Shown here: piece by piece, positions 10,534 through 20,697 of the stretch | How positions within the stretch are numbered: the first letter of the stretch is position 1 | Layout of the letters: every line of letters begins with the position of its first letter | Program-made: the position numbers and the translations under genes | From: Caulobacteraceae bacterium | Lineage (GTDB): Bacteria > Pseudomonadota > Alphaproteobacteria > Caulobacterales > Caulobacteraceae | Assembly (NCBI GenBank): GCA_019747095.1 | Contig: JAIERG010000034.1 | Span: 1-33,348, forward strand | Direction of reading: 5' to 3' | Length of the DNA: 33,348 nucleotides | Notes under the pieces: model-generated | The model's input: the letters and a program-made list of their open reading frames with translations, nothing else | The model's database searches: none | Told to the model about the DNA's origin: nothing

Positions 10534-10608
10534 GCCGCCGTAGCTCAGTGGTAGAGCGCATCCTTGGTAAGGCTGAGGTCGGCAGTTCAATCCTGCCCGG
10601 CGGCACCA
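10534..10608 (+). tRNA. tRNA-Thr(GGU)
   Basis: Acceptor stem GCCGCCG/CGGCGGC, discriminator A and encoded CCA; D arm with AGCTCAGTGGTAGAGC; anticodon loop TTGGTAA gives GGU; T arm with GTTCAATCC. The gene is intact. Its 3' two thirds is the left copy of the 51 bp att repeat of the 10.1 kb element. Confidence 0.96.
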
Positions 10609-10610
10609 TC
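10560..10610. repeat. attL, 51 bp core repeat
   Basis: Positions 10560-10610 are identical to 20647-20697, covering the tRNA from the anticodon arm through CCA plus two bases. Identity stops sharply on both sides. The tRNA here is complete. Confidence 0.95.
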
Positions 10611-10623
10611 TAAAGCCTTGTGT

Positions 10624-10645
10624 GGCGGGGGTTTCGGCCCCCGCC
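10624..10645 (+). terminator. Hairpin after tRNA-Thr(GGU), element-derived
   Basis: GGCGGGGG (10624-10631) pairs with CCCCCGCC (10638-10645) around TTTCGG. There is no T run, so it may be a weak terminator or a 3' end processing signal. It lies inside the element and takes the place of the host terminator now found after attR. Confidence 0.45.
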
Positions 10646-10699
10646 CGCATCCCTCTCCCCATCGCTACAATGCGAACGAACCGGGTTCGTCTCCGCTCA

Positions 10700-10721
10700 A
10701 ATCCGGGGAGAATCCGGGGAG
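10700..10721 (+). repeat. Left arm-type repeats (AATCCGGGGAG x2)
   Basis: AATCCGGGGAG occurs twice in tandem at 10700-10710 and 10711-10721, and AATCCGGGGAC at 20576-20586 near the other end. They lie 60-90 bp inside the att cores, as arm-type integrase sites do. The last bases also precede the GTG start at 10723. Confidence 0.45.
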
Positions 10722-10722
10722 C

Positions 10723-17911: not shown

Positions 17912-19113
17912 TCTGGCCTTTCAATCGTGAGCGCCGCTCGGCCGCCAGCATCGCCAGCTCTGACCCCTACCTCGCTGAGTTCTTCGGCCTTCGCGGTCAA
18001 GGCGGCGCGGGCGTCAACCCGGACGCTCTGCTGTCCAACAGCGCGGTTGCCGTTCGGTGCGTCAATCTCCGGTCAGAAATGCTGGCCAGCGTCGGCTTGC
18101 ACACCTTCCGCCGCACGGCCGAGGGCGGCCGGGAGCGCGCGGACGATCTGCCGCTCTATTCCGTGCTGCACGACCTCATGAACCCCGGAATGACCGCCTA
18201 TGAGGGGCGGGAGTTCCTGACGCGCTCTCTCGACCTTTCGGGCAATGCCTACGCTAGGATCGAGCGCAACTTCCGGGGCGAGGTCACCGCTCTCTATCCC
18301 GCTGCGCCCGCCGATGTGGCCGTTGAACGGCTGGCGTCTGGACGGCTTCGCTATCGCGTTTCGCAACGCCAAGGCGGAACCCTCACCTTGCTGCAGGACG
18401 AGATGCTTCACGTTCGGGGCCCCTCGCGCGACGGCCTCATGGGCGTCTCGGCGATCCAGTTCGGCCGGGGCGCGATGGGTCTCAGGGTCGCCCAGGCCGA
18501 GACGGCTCAGACCCTGATGCAGAATGGGCTTCGGCCTAGCGGCGTCATGAGCTTCACCGAGAGACTCCAGGCCACCGATCGCACCAAGATCCGTGAATCG
18601 ATCGCCGAGCGCATCCAAGGCCCGGCGAACGCTGGCCAGCTCATGATCATGGATGGCGGGGCCAAGTTCGAGCGCCTGTCGTTCTCGCCGGAAGACGCTG
18701 AGTTCCTCGCCTCACAAAAGCTGTCCAATGAGGACGTTGCCCGCCTGTTTGGCGTTCCCCCGACCAGCGTCGGCATCACGGACAAGGCCACCTATTCCAA
18801 CGTCGAACAGGAAGGCCGGTCGCTAGTCCAAAACTGTCTCGGCCCGCTCGCCGCGCGTATCGAGGCGGCTCTTGCCCGGTGCCTGCTGACCGATGAAGGG
18901 CGCCGGACCTACTACATCGAGCACGACCTTTCGGGCCTCCTCAGGGGCGACGTGCAAGCGCGTTTCGAGGCCTATCGCATCGGCCGCGAGATCGGGGTTT
19001 TCAGCCCGAACGACGTGCGCCGACGCGAGAACGAGCCGCCCATTCCCCAGGGCGACAGCTATCACCAGCCCTCAAACTGGACGCCGCTCGGCTCCCCGGC
19101 GGTGACGCAATGA
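17908..19113 (+). CDS. Phage portal protein (HK97 type)
   Basis: A 401-residue protein that forms the dodecameric ring through which DNA enters the head. Family patterns: AVRCVNLRSEMLASVGLHTF, SVLHDLMNPGMTAYEGREFL, LSGNAYARIERNF, YPAAPADVAVERL, GVSAIQFGRGAMGL, ASQKLSNEDVARLFGVPPTS and a C-terminal end with NDVRRRENEPPIPQGD. ATG 17908 has GGAGG at a good distance and overlaps the protease stop. It is complete, so it should bind terminase and connector. The stop overlaps the next start (ATGA). Confidence 0.96.
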   Translation: MIWPFNRERRSAASIASSDPYLAEFFGLRGQGGAGVNPDALLSNSAVAVRCVNLRSEMLASVGLHTFRRTAEGGRERADDLPLYSVLHDLMNPGMTAYEGREFLTRSLDLSGNAYARIERNFRGEVTALYPAAPADVAVERLASGRLRYRVSQRQGGTLTLLQDEMLHVRGPSRDGLMGVSAIQFGRGAMGLRVAQAETAQTLMQNGLRPSGVMSFTERLQATDRTKIRESIAERIQGPANAGQLMIMDGGAKFERLSFSPEDAEFLASQKLSNEDVARLFGVPPTSVGITDKATYSNVEQEGRSLVQNCLGPLAARIEAALARCLLTDEGRRTYYIEHDLSGLLRGDVQARFEAYRIGREIGVFSPNDVRRRENEPPIPQGDSYHQPSNWTPLGSPAVTQ

Positions 19114-19391
19114 CCGAACCCGTGGTCACGCTGAATGAAGCGAAAGAGGCGCTCCGCATTCTCCACGATGACCAGGACGCCCTGATCCAGGGCTTCCTGG
19201 ACGCGGCGATCGAGGAGGCCCTTTGCCTCGCCGATGGCCTCGATCGAGAGACGCTCACGGCCGAGACCCTTCCTCCGACAGTCCGAACGGCGATCCTGCT
19301 CCACGTCATTCAGATATTCGACCAGGCCGACGGCCAGACCCCGCCCGGGTCTGTCGCCCTCGCCAGCCGCCATCGAGACTGGAGCGCGTGA
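19110..19391 (+). CDS. Head-tail connector (gp6-like)
   Basis: A 93-residue helical protein: TLNEAKEALRILHDDQDALI, QGFLDAAIEEALCLADG, then PPTVRTAILLHVIQIFDQAD. This is the pattern of gp6-like connectors that sit under the portal and form the surface for tail joining. It overlaps the portal stop and its own stop overlaps the next gene by one base. It is the last structural gene. No head-closure, tail-terminator or tail-tube gene follows, unlike in an HK97-type prophage. Confidence 0.85.
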   Translation: MTEPVVTLNEAKEALRILHDDQDALIQGFLDAAIEEALCLADGLDRETLTAETLPPTVRTAILLHVIQIFDQADGQTPPGSVALASRHRDWSA

Positions 19392-19765
19392 TGGCAGGGT
19401 TCCCGGTCATCAAGACGGCTCATGACCTGGTCGCGGAGCGCCTTGTTCCGTGTTCCGAAAGCGTCCTGCTGTCCCTCGCCCGAAAGCATGGCGTCGGCCG
19501 CAAACTCGGGCGAACGTGTGTCTTCACCCCGGCCGACGTGACCGAACTTTTGGAAAAGCTTCCATGCCCCTCACCCTCAAACGACGCCACGGTTCGCCAA
19601 ACTGGTACATACGCGGGACCGTCCGCGGGCTCCTCGTTGACGAAAGCACTGGCACTGGCGACCGCAAAGCGGCCGAGGAAGTCCGCGCGGTCCGCGAGGC
19701 CGAGCTGCTCAAGCGATCAGTCCACGGTGATTCCGCTACACGCACCTTCGCGGATGCCGCGTTGA
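19391..19765 (+). CDS. Excisionase-like HTH protein, overlaps integrase
   Basis: 124 residues in the full frame. The first 60 contain a MerR/Xis-like DNA-binding module: TAHDLVAERLVPCSESVLLS, LARKHGVGRKLGRTCVFTPA, then DVTELLEKLPCP. Such proteins before an integrase usually act as excisionase. GGAG precedes the ATG by six bases. The last 200 bases overlap the integrase in another frame and code for a low-complexity tail, so the active part is probably the first 60 residues. Confidence 0.65.
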   Translation: MAGFPVIKTAHDLVAERLVPCSESVLLSLARKHGVGRKLGRTCVFTPADVTELLEKLPCPSPSNDATVRQTGTYAGPSAGSSLTKALALATAKRPRKSARSARPSCSSDQSTVIPLHAPSRMPR

Positions 19766-20631
19766 GCTACATGGAAGCGGGAGGGGAAAGTCAGCACCTC
19801 GCGCCCATCCTGAAGCGGATCGGTTCAAAGCCCCTCGCGACCATCGGTCAGGCCGAGATCGACGCGCTGGCCCTGAAGCTGAAACCTGACGGCGGCCCGG
19901 CCACCCGCAATCGCCACATCTACACCCCTGTCGTCGCCGTGCTGCATCATGCTGCCCGCAAGCGATGGTGCGACAAACCTGTCGTAGCCCGGCCGAGGGA
20001 GCCGAAGGGCCGCGTCCGTTGGGTTACCCACGCCGAGGCCGATCAGCTTATTGAGGCCGCTGCGCCGCACCTCCGGCCACTGGTCGTTTTCCTGTTTTCG
20101 ACCGGAGCCCGCGTCTCCGAAGCCCTTTACCTCGATTGGCGCGACGTTGACCTGGACAGGGCGCACGTCCAGTTCATTGACACCAAGAACGGCGAGCCGA
20201 GAGGCGTTCCTCTACATCCTCGCGCCGTCGCCGCCCTGTCCAGCCTTCCCCATCGCCAGGGAGCGGTTTTCCGGCGTTCCCTGCCCCACGTCACCGCCTC
20301 TGGCGTCCGGCGGCCCTTAGGGCCCGCTTATGAGGTCAGGGAGGGCGGTGGGGGTCAAATCAAGACCGCTTGGAACGGGATGCTCCGGCGCGCGGGCATC
20401 ACCGATTTCAGCCCTCACGACTGCCGCCACACCTGGGCAACGTGGCACTACCAGGCGAACCGAGATCTTACGGCTTTGATGGCCCTCGGCGGCTGGAAAA
20501 GCGTCTCGATGGTGATGCGCTACGCCCATGTGAACACCTCGCATCTTGCCGGATCGATCGGCGGGATATGGGGAAAATCCGGGGACACGGCCCCCGCAAG
20601 AGCCGTCAAACCCAAGCGTGGAGCCGCTTAG
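19564..20631 (+). CDS. Tyrosine recombinase / integrase
   Basis: A 355-residue site-specific recombinase that should integrate and excise the element at tRNA-Thr(GGU). The catalytic set is complete: R183 in STGARVSEAL, K208 in FIDTKNGEPR, H285 and R288 in SPHDCRHTWATW, W311 in LGGWKS and Y320 in MVMRYAHVN. The N-terminal part (1-55) is an arm-binding-like domain and 60-145 the core-binding helices. The start MPLTLKRRHGSPNWYIRGT is chosen because homology begins here; GGAAA is upstream. It lies 15 bp before attR and is transcribed toward it, as the last gene of the same direction. Confidence 0.96.
   Translation: MPLTLKRRHGSPNWYIRGTVRGLLVDESTGTGDRKAAEEVRAVREAELLKRSVHGDSATRTFADAALSYMEAGGESQHLAPILKRIGSKPLATIGQAEIDALALKLKPDGGPATRNRHIYTPVVAVLHHAARKRWCDKPVVARPREPKGRVRWVTHAEADQLIEAAAPHLRPLVVFLFSTGARVSEALYLDWRDVDLDRAHVQFIDTKNGEPRGVPLHPRAVAALSSLPHRQGAVFRRSLPHVTASGVRRPLGPAYEVREGGGGQIKTAWNGMLRRAGITDFSPHDCRHTWATWHYQANRDLTALMALGGWKSVSMVMRYAHVNTSHLAGSIGGIWGKSGDTAPARAVKPKRGAA
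20576..20586 (+). repeat. Right arm-type repeat (AATCCGGGGAC)
   Basis: Matches ten of eleven bases of the tandem pair at 10700-10721, in the same orientation, 61 bp inside attR. It lies in the 3' end of the integrase gene. Confidence 0.4.
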
Positions 20632-20646
20632 AGATATGACAGAAAA

Positions 20647-20697
20647 ATCCTTGGTAAGGCTGAGGTCGGCAGTTCAATCCTGCCCGGCGGCACCATC
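20647..20697. repeat. attR, 51 bp core repeat
   Basis: Identical to 10560-10610. It is the original host 3' part of tRNA-Thr(GGU), without the 5' third, so it is not a functional tRNA gene here. Confidence 0.95.

Follow-up and report, generated by a model that had tools for sequence, protein, structure and literature searches.

The element and its integration site

The window analyzed here, the whole 33,348-nt stretch of contig JAIERG010000034.1 from a Caulobacteraceae bacterium (assembly of 3.01 Mb in 239 contigs), includes between nucleotides 10560 and 20697 an element that is very probably an integrative phage satellite, which would make its own small head and depend on a tailed helper for its tail and for lysis. 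Exact 51-bp direct repeats are found at both ends of the element (a 57-nt form of the repeat shows 96% identity between copies), and the repeat overlaps the 3′ part of a tRNA-Thr(ggt) gene, the sole Rfam match in the window. The predicted excised unit is 10,087 bp. An uninterrupted version of the site is present in three congeneric genomes, with identities over about 600 nt across the junction of 89% (G216), 88% (G135), and 82% (G729), and the flanks of the element also match congeneric genomes. The presence of these empty sites indicates that the insertion is real and its ends are exact, so that the boundaries, perfect repeats and length of about 10.1 kb proposed in a sequence-only reading of this DNA are confirmed. 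The 15 open reading frames (ORFs) of the element were scanned singly against Pfam and PHROG profiles (E≤0.01), and nine close relatives, two of which are near-copies of the locus L117, were compared with it gene by gene. The features are as follows.

10534..10608, + strand: tRNA-Thr(ggt), integration target whose 3′ part is the core of the attachment (att) site (ARAGORN; Rfam tRNA, 64.6 bits)
10560..10610: attL, 51-bp exact repeat (repeat search; empty site in three relatives)
10723..11013, + strand: small ORF, start uncertain (no Pfam or PHROG match; no match in the nine close relatives)
11010..11804, + strand: O-like replication initiator with HTH_36 (phrog_391, 2e-10)
11801..12640, + strand: HNH endonuclease fused to a P-loop (AAA_33) domain (PF01844, PF13671; phrog_4581, labelled small terminase)
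12642..14300, + strand: terminase large subunit (TerL), HK97-type (PF20441, 2e-41; PF03354, 5e-21)
14318..14557, − strand: ribbon-helix-helix (RHH) repressor-like protein, antisense to the other genes (phrog_4738, 1e-07; Pfam RHH_1 below cut-off)
14649..14849, + strand: small ORF (no match in the nine close relatives)
14846..15103, + strand: small ORF (no match in the nine close relatives)
15115..15214: operator-like ACTGTCTGT / ACAGACAGT repeats in direct and inverted orientation, lying upstream of the slot gene
15269..15931, + strand: slot gene g8, putative DNA-binding protein, in a hypervariable locus before the capsid gene (no Pfam or PHROG match)
15928..16158, + strand: small ORF (profile scans)
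16155..17375, + strand: major capsid protein, HK97 fold (PF05065, 1e-27)
17378..17911, + strand: prohead protease, S78 (profile, 4e-38)
17908..19113, + strand: portal protein (profile, 4e-95)
19110..19391, + strand: gp6-like head-tail connector (adaptor) (profile, 2e-07)
19391..19765, + strand: excisionase-like (xis-like) gene overlapping the integrase gene (phrog_1840, 1e-05; 69-70% identical in L117 and L210)
19564..20631, + strand: tyrosine integrase (PF00589, 3e-26; 80-82% identical in elements at the same tRNA-Thr site)
20647..20697: attR, 51-bp exact repeat (repeat search)

All parts of the head module claimed from the sequence (TerL, capsid, protease, portal, and connector) were found by profile, the connector being a single gp6-like gene and TerL about 45% identical to HK97 gp2. 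The genes are intact and overlapping, and none of the 15 ORFs matched tail, tape-measure or lysis families; five of them, including the slot gene, matched no family at all. The claim of replication and integration genes held only in part: the integrase stands, while the replication set consists of the O-like initiator, with neither primase nor helicase found by the profile scans. In eight of the nine close relatives the HNH-P-loop protein is matched over its HNH part only, but it aligns with L208 over 241 of 279 residues, indicating that the fusion is probably also present there. A PADLOC search of nine ORFs for defence cargo returned no match.

A family of elements without tail genes

Capsid searches identified 35 genome loci, one of which, L119 (30% identical, partial), was left aside, and the best 80 of 119 viral loci were also taken; five further loci came from additional genome searches. 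Of 40 loci, that of the window included, 37 have both a portal and an integrase gene, with a gap of −3 to 774 bp between them. As for the other three, L092 stops at a contig edge, and no downstream integrase was found in L113 and L212, both of which have an integrase-like match at the left end. Some copies are damaged: the integrase is broken in L098 and split in L107, and the TerL of L085 and the portal of L106 each lie in two frames. The 21 complete copies bounded by direct repeats of at least 16 nt measure 9,574 to 11,140 bp, with a tRNA at the repeat in 19 of them. With this size and so short a gap, a tail module does not fit between the two genes. The sequence-only reading had named tail and lysis genes between connector and integrase in close relatives as the mark of a deleted prophage. 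The lack of a tail can thus be considered a trait of the family and not a deletion in the copy found in the window. Martelella carries a shortened element of the family (L118:9427-13713), a deletion derivative of 4.3 kb whose capsid gene is truncated.

The order capsid-protease-portal is conserved in all 118 loci that have the three genes (121 examined, some of them copies of one genome) and is opposite to the portal-protease-capsid order of HK97, Shpa, Rivra, and AS1. By record title the hosts include Mesorhizobium, Rhizobium, Roseibium, Sulfitobacter, Bosea, and Brevundimonas bullata, which belong to the orders of the rhizobia, rhodobacters, and caulobacters. The distribution is patchy, with matches at E≤1e-40 in four of 299 genomes of the host's bacterial family, its own counted. 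Eight of the 398 genomes of a phylum sample matched the capsid at E≤1e-20. Three of these carry tail-less elements (G000, G396, and G482), and the remaining five (L213-L217) match only the C-terminal part of the capsid at 33-38% identity, four of them in frames of 635-704 amino acids within prophage-like surroundings. The recurrence of gene order and size in dozens of loci, together with the congeneric empty sites, indicates that the element is not a product of chance, and a plan of head without tail shared by dozens of alphaproteobacterial relatives suggests that they probably spread by means of borrowed tails.

The best 120 proteins of the larger capsid search were 55-100% identical to the query. 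Only 56 of 50,697 phage records matched, the best at about 31% identity among the matches listed, and eight plasmid records did so, again at 31% at best. A single clade with support of 100/98 unites 32 of the 34 family members included in the capsid tree, in agreement with the earlier suggestion of a separate lineage. L209, L210, and a cassette from the Acinetobacter schindleri plasmid pHZE33-1-1 (L223:11995-17875) meet phages and prophages at a fork that the tree does not resolve, and the same fork is all that it gives for a common ancestry of the alphaproteobacterial family and this cassette to the exclusion of phages. Portal and TerL trees were quick and had long branches, and were given no weight. 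The cassette, with the structure capsid-protease-portal-HNH-TerL-connector-head closure, shares with the satellite family the order of its first three genes as well as HNH, TerL, and connector, but its HNH and TerL genes come after the portal, where those of the family stand before the capsid, and identities are 31-37%. No annotated tail gene lies within the 25 kb shown around it, and its DNA had no match in E. coli.

Identities between the element and its nine close relatives were 72-77% for TerL, 70-79% for the protease, and 74-79% for the portal, and ranged from 36 to 83% for the capsid, which is replaced in L210. This locus (genome G155) shares the genus and the tRNA-Thr site with the window, and its TerL and portal are 77% and 74% identical to those of the window but its capsid only 36%; the capsid gene has evidently been swapped. 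The initiators are unrelated except that of L208 (38%), and the integrase is 80-82% identical only in relatives that share the tRNA-Thr site. The connector is just 40-49% identical where portals are 74-79% identical, as would be expected for a surface that meets different tails. On these comparisons the family can be considered a mosaic.

The hypervariable slot before the capsid gene

The gene occupying the slot before the capsid gene differs between elements even when their capsids are about 80% identical; among 101 uncurated rows, 26, g8 itself counted, group with the g8 gene of the window. Single Pfam scans of slot proteins found MerR_1 above the cut-off in L208 and below it in L099, and no match in L210. 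In PHROG, 52 of 55 slot proteins had no match, the other three matched one unnamed family, and none of the 55 matched small terminase families. The AlphaFold2 model of g8 is confident (pLDDT, the predicted local distance difference test, 82.5), but a comparison of its fold with the PDB and BFVD gave no match at E≤0.001. Because g8 is unmatched, as are the 52 proteins without a PHROG family, a DNA-binding function for slot proteins is only a reading, best supported for L208. The slot gene was also tried as a small terminase, which found no support in these PHROG and fold searches; a packaging role is still conceivable.

Within the 120 bases around the start of the slot gene, inverted repeats at p≤0.05 were found in 34 of 77 rows, against 3 of 77 inside the same genes (40 shuffles per row; 77 of 102 rows used, 24 having been removed by hand and one being too short, with near-duplicates kept). 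They often span a TTGAC box, and in the window the ACTGTCTGT/ACAGACAGT repeats occupy nucleotides 15115-15214. We read the slot as a putative element-specific transcription switch of the capsid operon, positioned like an immunity region. A hypervariable, putatively DNA-binding slot before the capsid gene, often with what appears to be its own palindromic operator, would be a new feature, and it provides a testable model of helper sensing.

Satellites, helpers and gene transfer agents

Capsid-forming phage-inducible chromosomal islands (cf-PICIs) are described as encoding their own heads, terminases, HNH, AlpA, and the primase-replicase Pri-Rep, and as using helper tails (PMC10690885, PMC10448857, PMC13230959, PMC10803314, PMC11389934); an average of 14 kb is given for them, and their hosts are mainly enteric bacteria, Pasteurella, Morganellaceae, and Gram-positives (PMC10803314). 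Like the cf-PICIs described (PMC10690885, PMC10448857), the element is integrated, has an integrase and att repeats, encodes its own capsid, protease, portal, connector, HNH, and TerL, and has no tail. Unlike them, it measures about 10 kb and resides in an alphaproteobacterium. The likeness to cf-PICIs drawn in the sequence-only reading holds for these genes but stops at AlpA and Pri-Rep: the scans of the element found only the xis-like phrog_1840 match, with no AlpA or HTH_17 Pfam match, and the O-like initiator in place of a primase-replicase. In 122 ORFs of relatives, among the matches listed, HTH_17 was found in two and phrog_66 in two, and some relatives carry primase or helicase families, as L099 does with a DUF5906/D5 protein. 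Since AlpA and Pri-Rep were not found, the element, which on paper works like a cf-PICI, is called a capsid-forming satellite lineage rather than a cf-PICI. Its capsid clade stands apart from the phages compared. The Streptomyces satellites MulchRoom and MiniFlayer are also reported to encode heads and packaging, MulchRoom apparently borrowing its tail (PMC10690885); by description they have virulent helpers and genomes with direct terminal repeats, and are unrelated to cf-PICIs.

Dependence on helper tails, induction, replication, the ends of the packaged DNA, the size of the capsid, particle formation, the source of the tail, and transfer are inferred, as follows. A helper, which could be a tailed phage or prophage and possibly a gene transfer agent (GTA), would lift the repression exerted by the slot-gene regulator, the RHH regulator, or both. 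A circle would then be excised by the integrase with Xis, and on it the O-like protein would initiate replication. HNH and TerL would cut the concatemers and fill about 10 kb into small HK97-fold heads matured by the protease of the element, and portal and gp6-like connector would form the neck where helper tails dock. Chimeric particles would be freed by helper lysis and the DNA would reintegrate at tRNA-Thr.

Several points weigh against the satellite interpretation. The satellite and its helper are predicted from genes. Profile searches for tail families covered the window, 122 non-head ORFs of 16 relatives, and a few single ORFs, and the pooled scans of the 122 ORFs comprise 25 of 86 PHROG and 25 of 35 Pfam families among the matches listed; there, connector, replication, and excision families appeared, along with one head-completion ORF and one tape-measure-domain ORF. 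Tail-lessness is not absolute in the family, as L099:6968-8983 and L211:5282-7618 encode a protein with a tape-measure domain (TMP_2). No HNH or TerL match was found in these two loci, which might be satellites that set tail length and use the helper terminase. The profile scans revealed no separate small terminase in the element, and no cos site was identified there. Direct terminal repeats of at least 15 nt were looked for in 89 viral loci (11 obtained with the portal and 78 with the capsid as query, a few of them parts of longer contigs) and were found in none, and the idea of reading packaged or circular forms from contig ends was rejected on this result.

The tail of such a satellite could be usually donated by the host's own GTA instead of an infecting phage, an explanation that we consider doubtful, though less so than the other alternatives. 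Six distinct relatives interrupt the terminase gene of an RcGTA-like cluster, all at identical codons: L089 (Pararhizobium), L100 (Chelativorans), L103 (a Hyphomicrobiales assembly), L114 (Bosea), and the IMG/VR loci L253 and L255 (L256, a 99.9% copy of L255, is not counted separately). The left terminase fragment stops right after ...DEMCEF or ...DQMCEF in five loci, L253 beginning inside the element, and in all six the right remnant starts at ...MC[D/E]FGxxGLxxGRSPDRxDAL..., which gives six right junctions and five left ones. The gene is cut about 40 codons from its end, and the detached C-terminus contains a DR.DAL motif that we take to be part of the TerL nuclease site. A GTA portal follows the remnant in five loci (L103 ends earlier, and the portal of L089 matches in two frames), and beside L100 and L114 this portal precedes the GTA protease and capsid. 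Core-to-core size is 9.9-10.7 kb in the five copies with both junctions. Integrases are 94% (L103), 84% (L114), and 85% (L089) identical to that of L100. The L255 capsid is only about 36% identical to that of the window, which indicates that head genes change in elements that retain the integrase and the site.

This arrangement resembles that of the helper-embedded PICIs (HE-PICIs), described as integrated within late genes of lambdoid helper prophages (PMC10111431), although here a GTA rather than a lambdoid prophage supplies the gene in which the satellite is embedded, and the window's own element, which uses a tRNA, is not embedded. The term 'gene transfer agent' is absent from the text of that paper, and at the listing or abstract level of the literature pairing GTAs with satellites no report of GTA-embedded satellites was found. 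The GTA tail protein GTA_TIM is encoded in 31 of 39 host genomes, that of the window included. The other eight have no match, among them G155 (100% complete, host of L210) and G742 (host of L087, a complete chromosome record); GTAs therefore cannot be the only helper, and a general rule with the GTA as sole helper was rejected. The GTA terL may also be merely a convenient target. A search of 367 genomes of the class found no further close integrase of the terL-embedded type, but it had no known positive and its empty result is uninformative. Within the order to which G754 belongs, four of 367 genomes had a close integrase, G754 itself being one and the others providing L263, L264, and L265; L264 is a family element with no GTA beside it. 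In L263:2798-4210 (reverse complement) a related integrase was observed at the GTA terL end in the opposite orientation, with most of the element past the contig end.

That alphaproteobacterial capsid-forming satellites exploit the host GTA as a resident tail donor, with a sub-lineage embedded in its terminase gene, is an attractive but unproven idea to which we give a rather low probability. If true, insertion in terL would disable GTA packaging of host DNA and excision would re-arm the GTA, the downstream GTA head-tail genes would be in line with the embedded satellite, and non-embedded elements, the one in the window included, would use GTA or phage tails in trans. The GTA of the window's host lies on other contigs (C225 and C142, the latter with the GTA_TIM gene). 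Distinct from these, contig C52 (L251, 1-4268) has a tail-tip fragment with Phage-tail_3 and DUF6950, which may come from a resident tailed prophage.

The element could itself encode a GTA-like particle that has been domesticated, or be an autonomous virus without a tail, its heads being released from the cell as they are. RcGTA-like GTAs do have HK97-type head genes and occur in the same hosts, as the GTA_TIM counts attest, but this explanation is very improbable: no GTA_TIM or other tail match was found in the element; integrase, xis-like gene, and att repeats are unlike a fixed GTA cluster; the family is patchily distributed over many integration sites; the host has a separate GTA cluster, an RcGTA-like system in which portal precedes protease and capsid; and a portal with a gp6-like connector implies a tail. 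Least credible is a remnant of an ordinary prophage after loss of tail and lysis genes, since, even though every recognised part is phage-derived and the family has one deletion derivative (L118), the same plan and size recur in the 37 loci with portal and integrase, the genes are intact and overlapping, the empty sites indicate a mobile unit, and the five capsid relatives outside such elements are only 33-38% identical and partial (the prophage-like surroundings of four of them were not scanned for tail families); a deletion derivative was therefore rejected in favor of a satellite, as the sequence-only reading had proposed.

By its genes the element is a capsid-forming satellite of an alphaproteobacterial lineage of which no description was found in the open-access literature at the listing level. 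It would extend satellites that make heads and borrow tails to rhizobia and their relatives, rhodobacters, and caulobacters. Such elements are already in IMG/VR as many contigs of about 10 kb, and from so narrow a range of sizes a defined small capsid would be expected. The six relatives inside the GTA terminase gene are also new; these insertions link satellites with GTAs, bear on how GTAs persist and what exploits them, and make the existence of GTA parasites directly testable.

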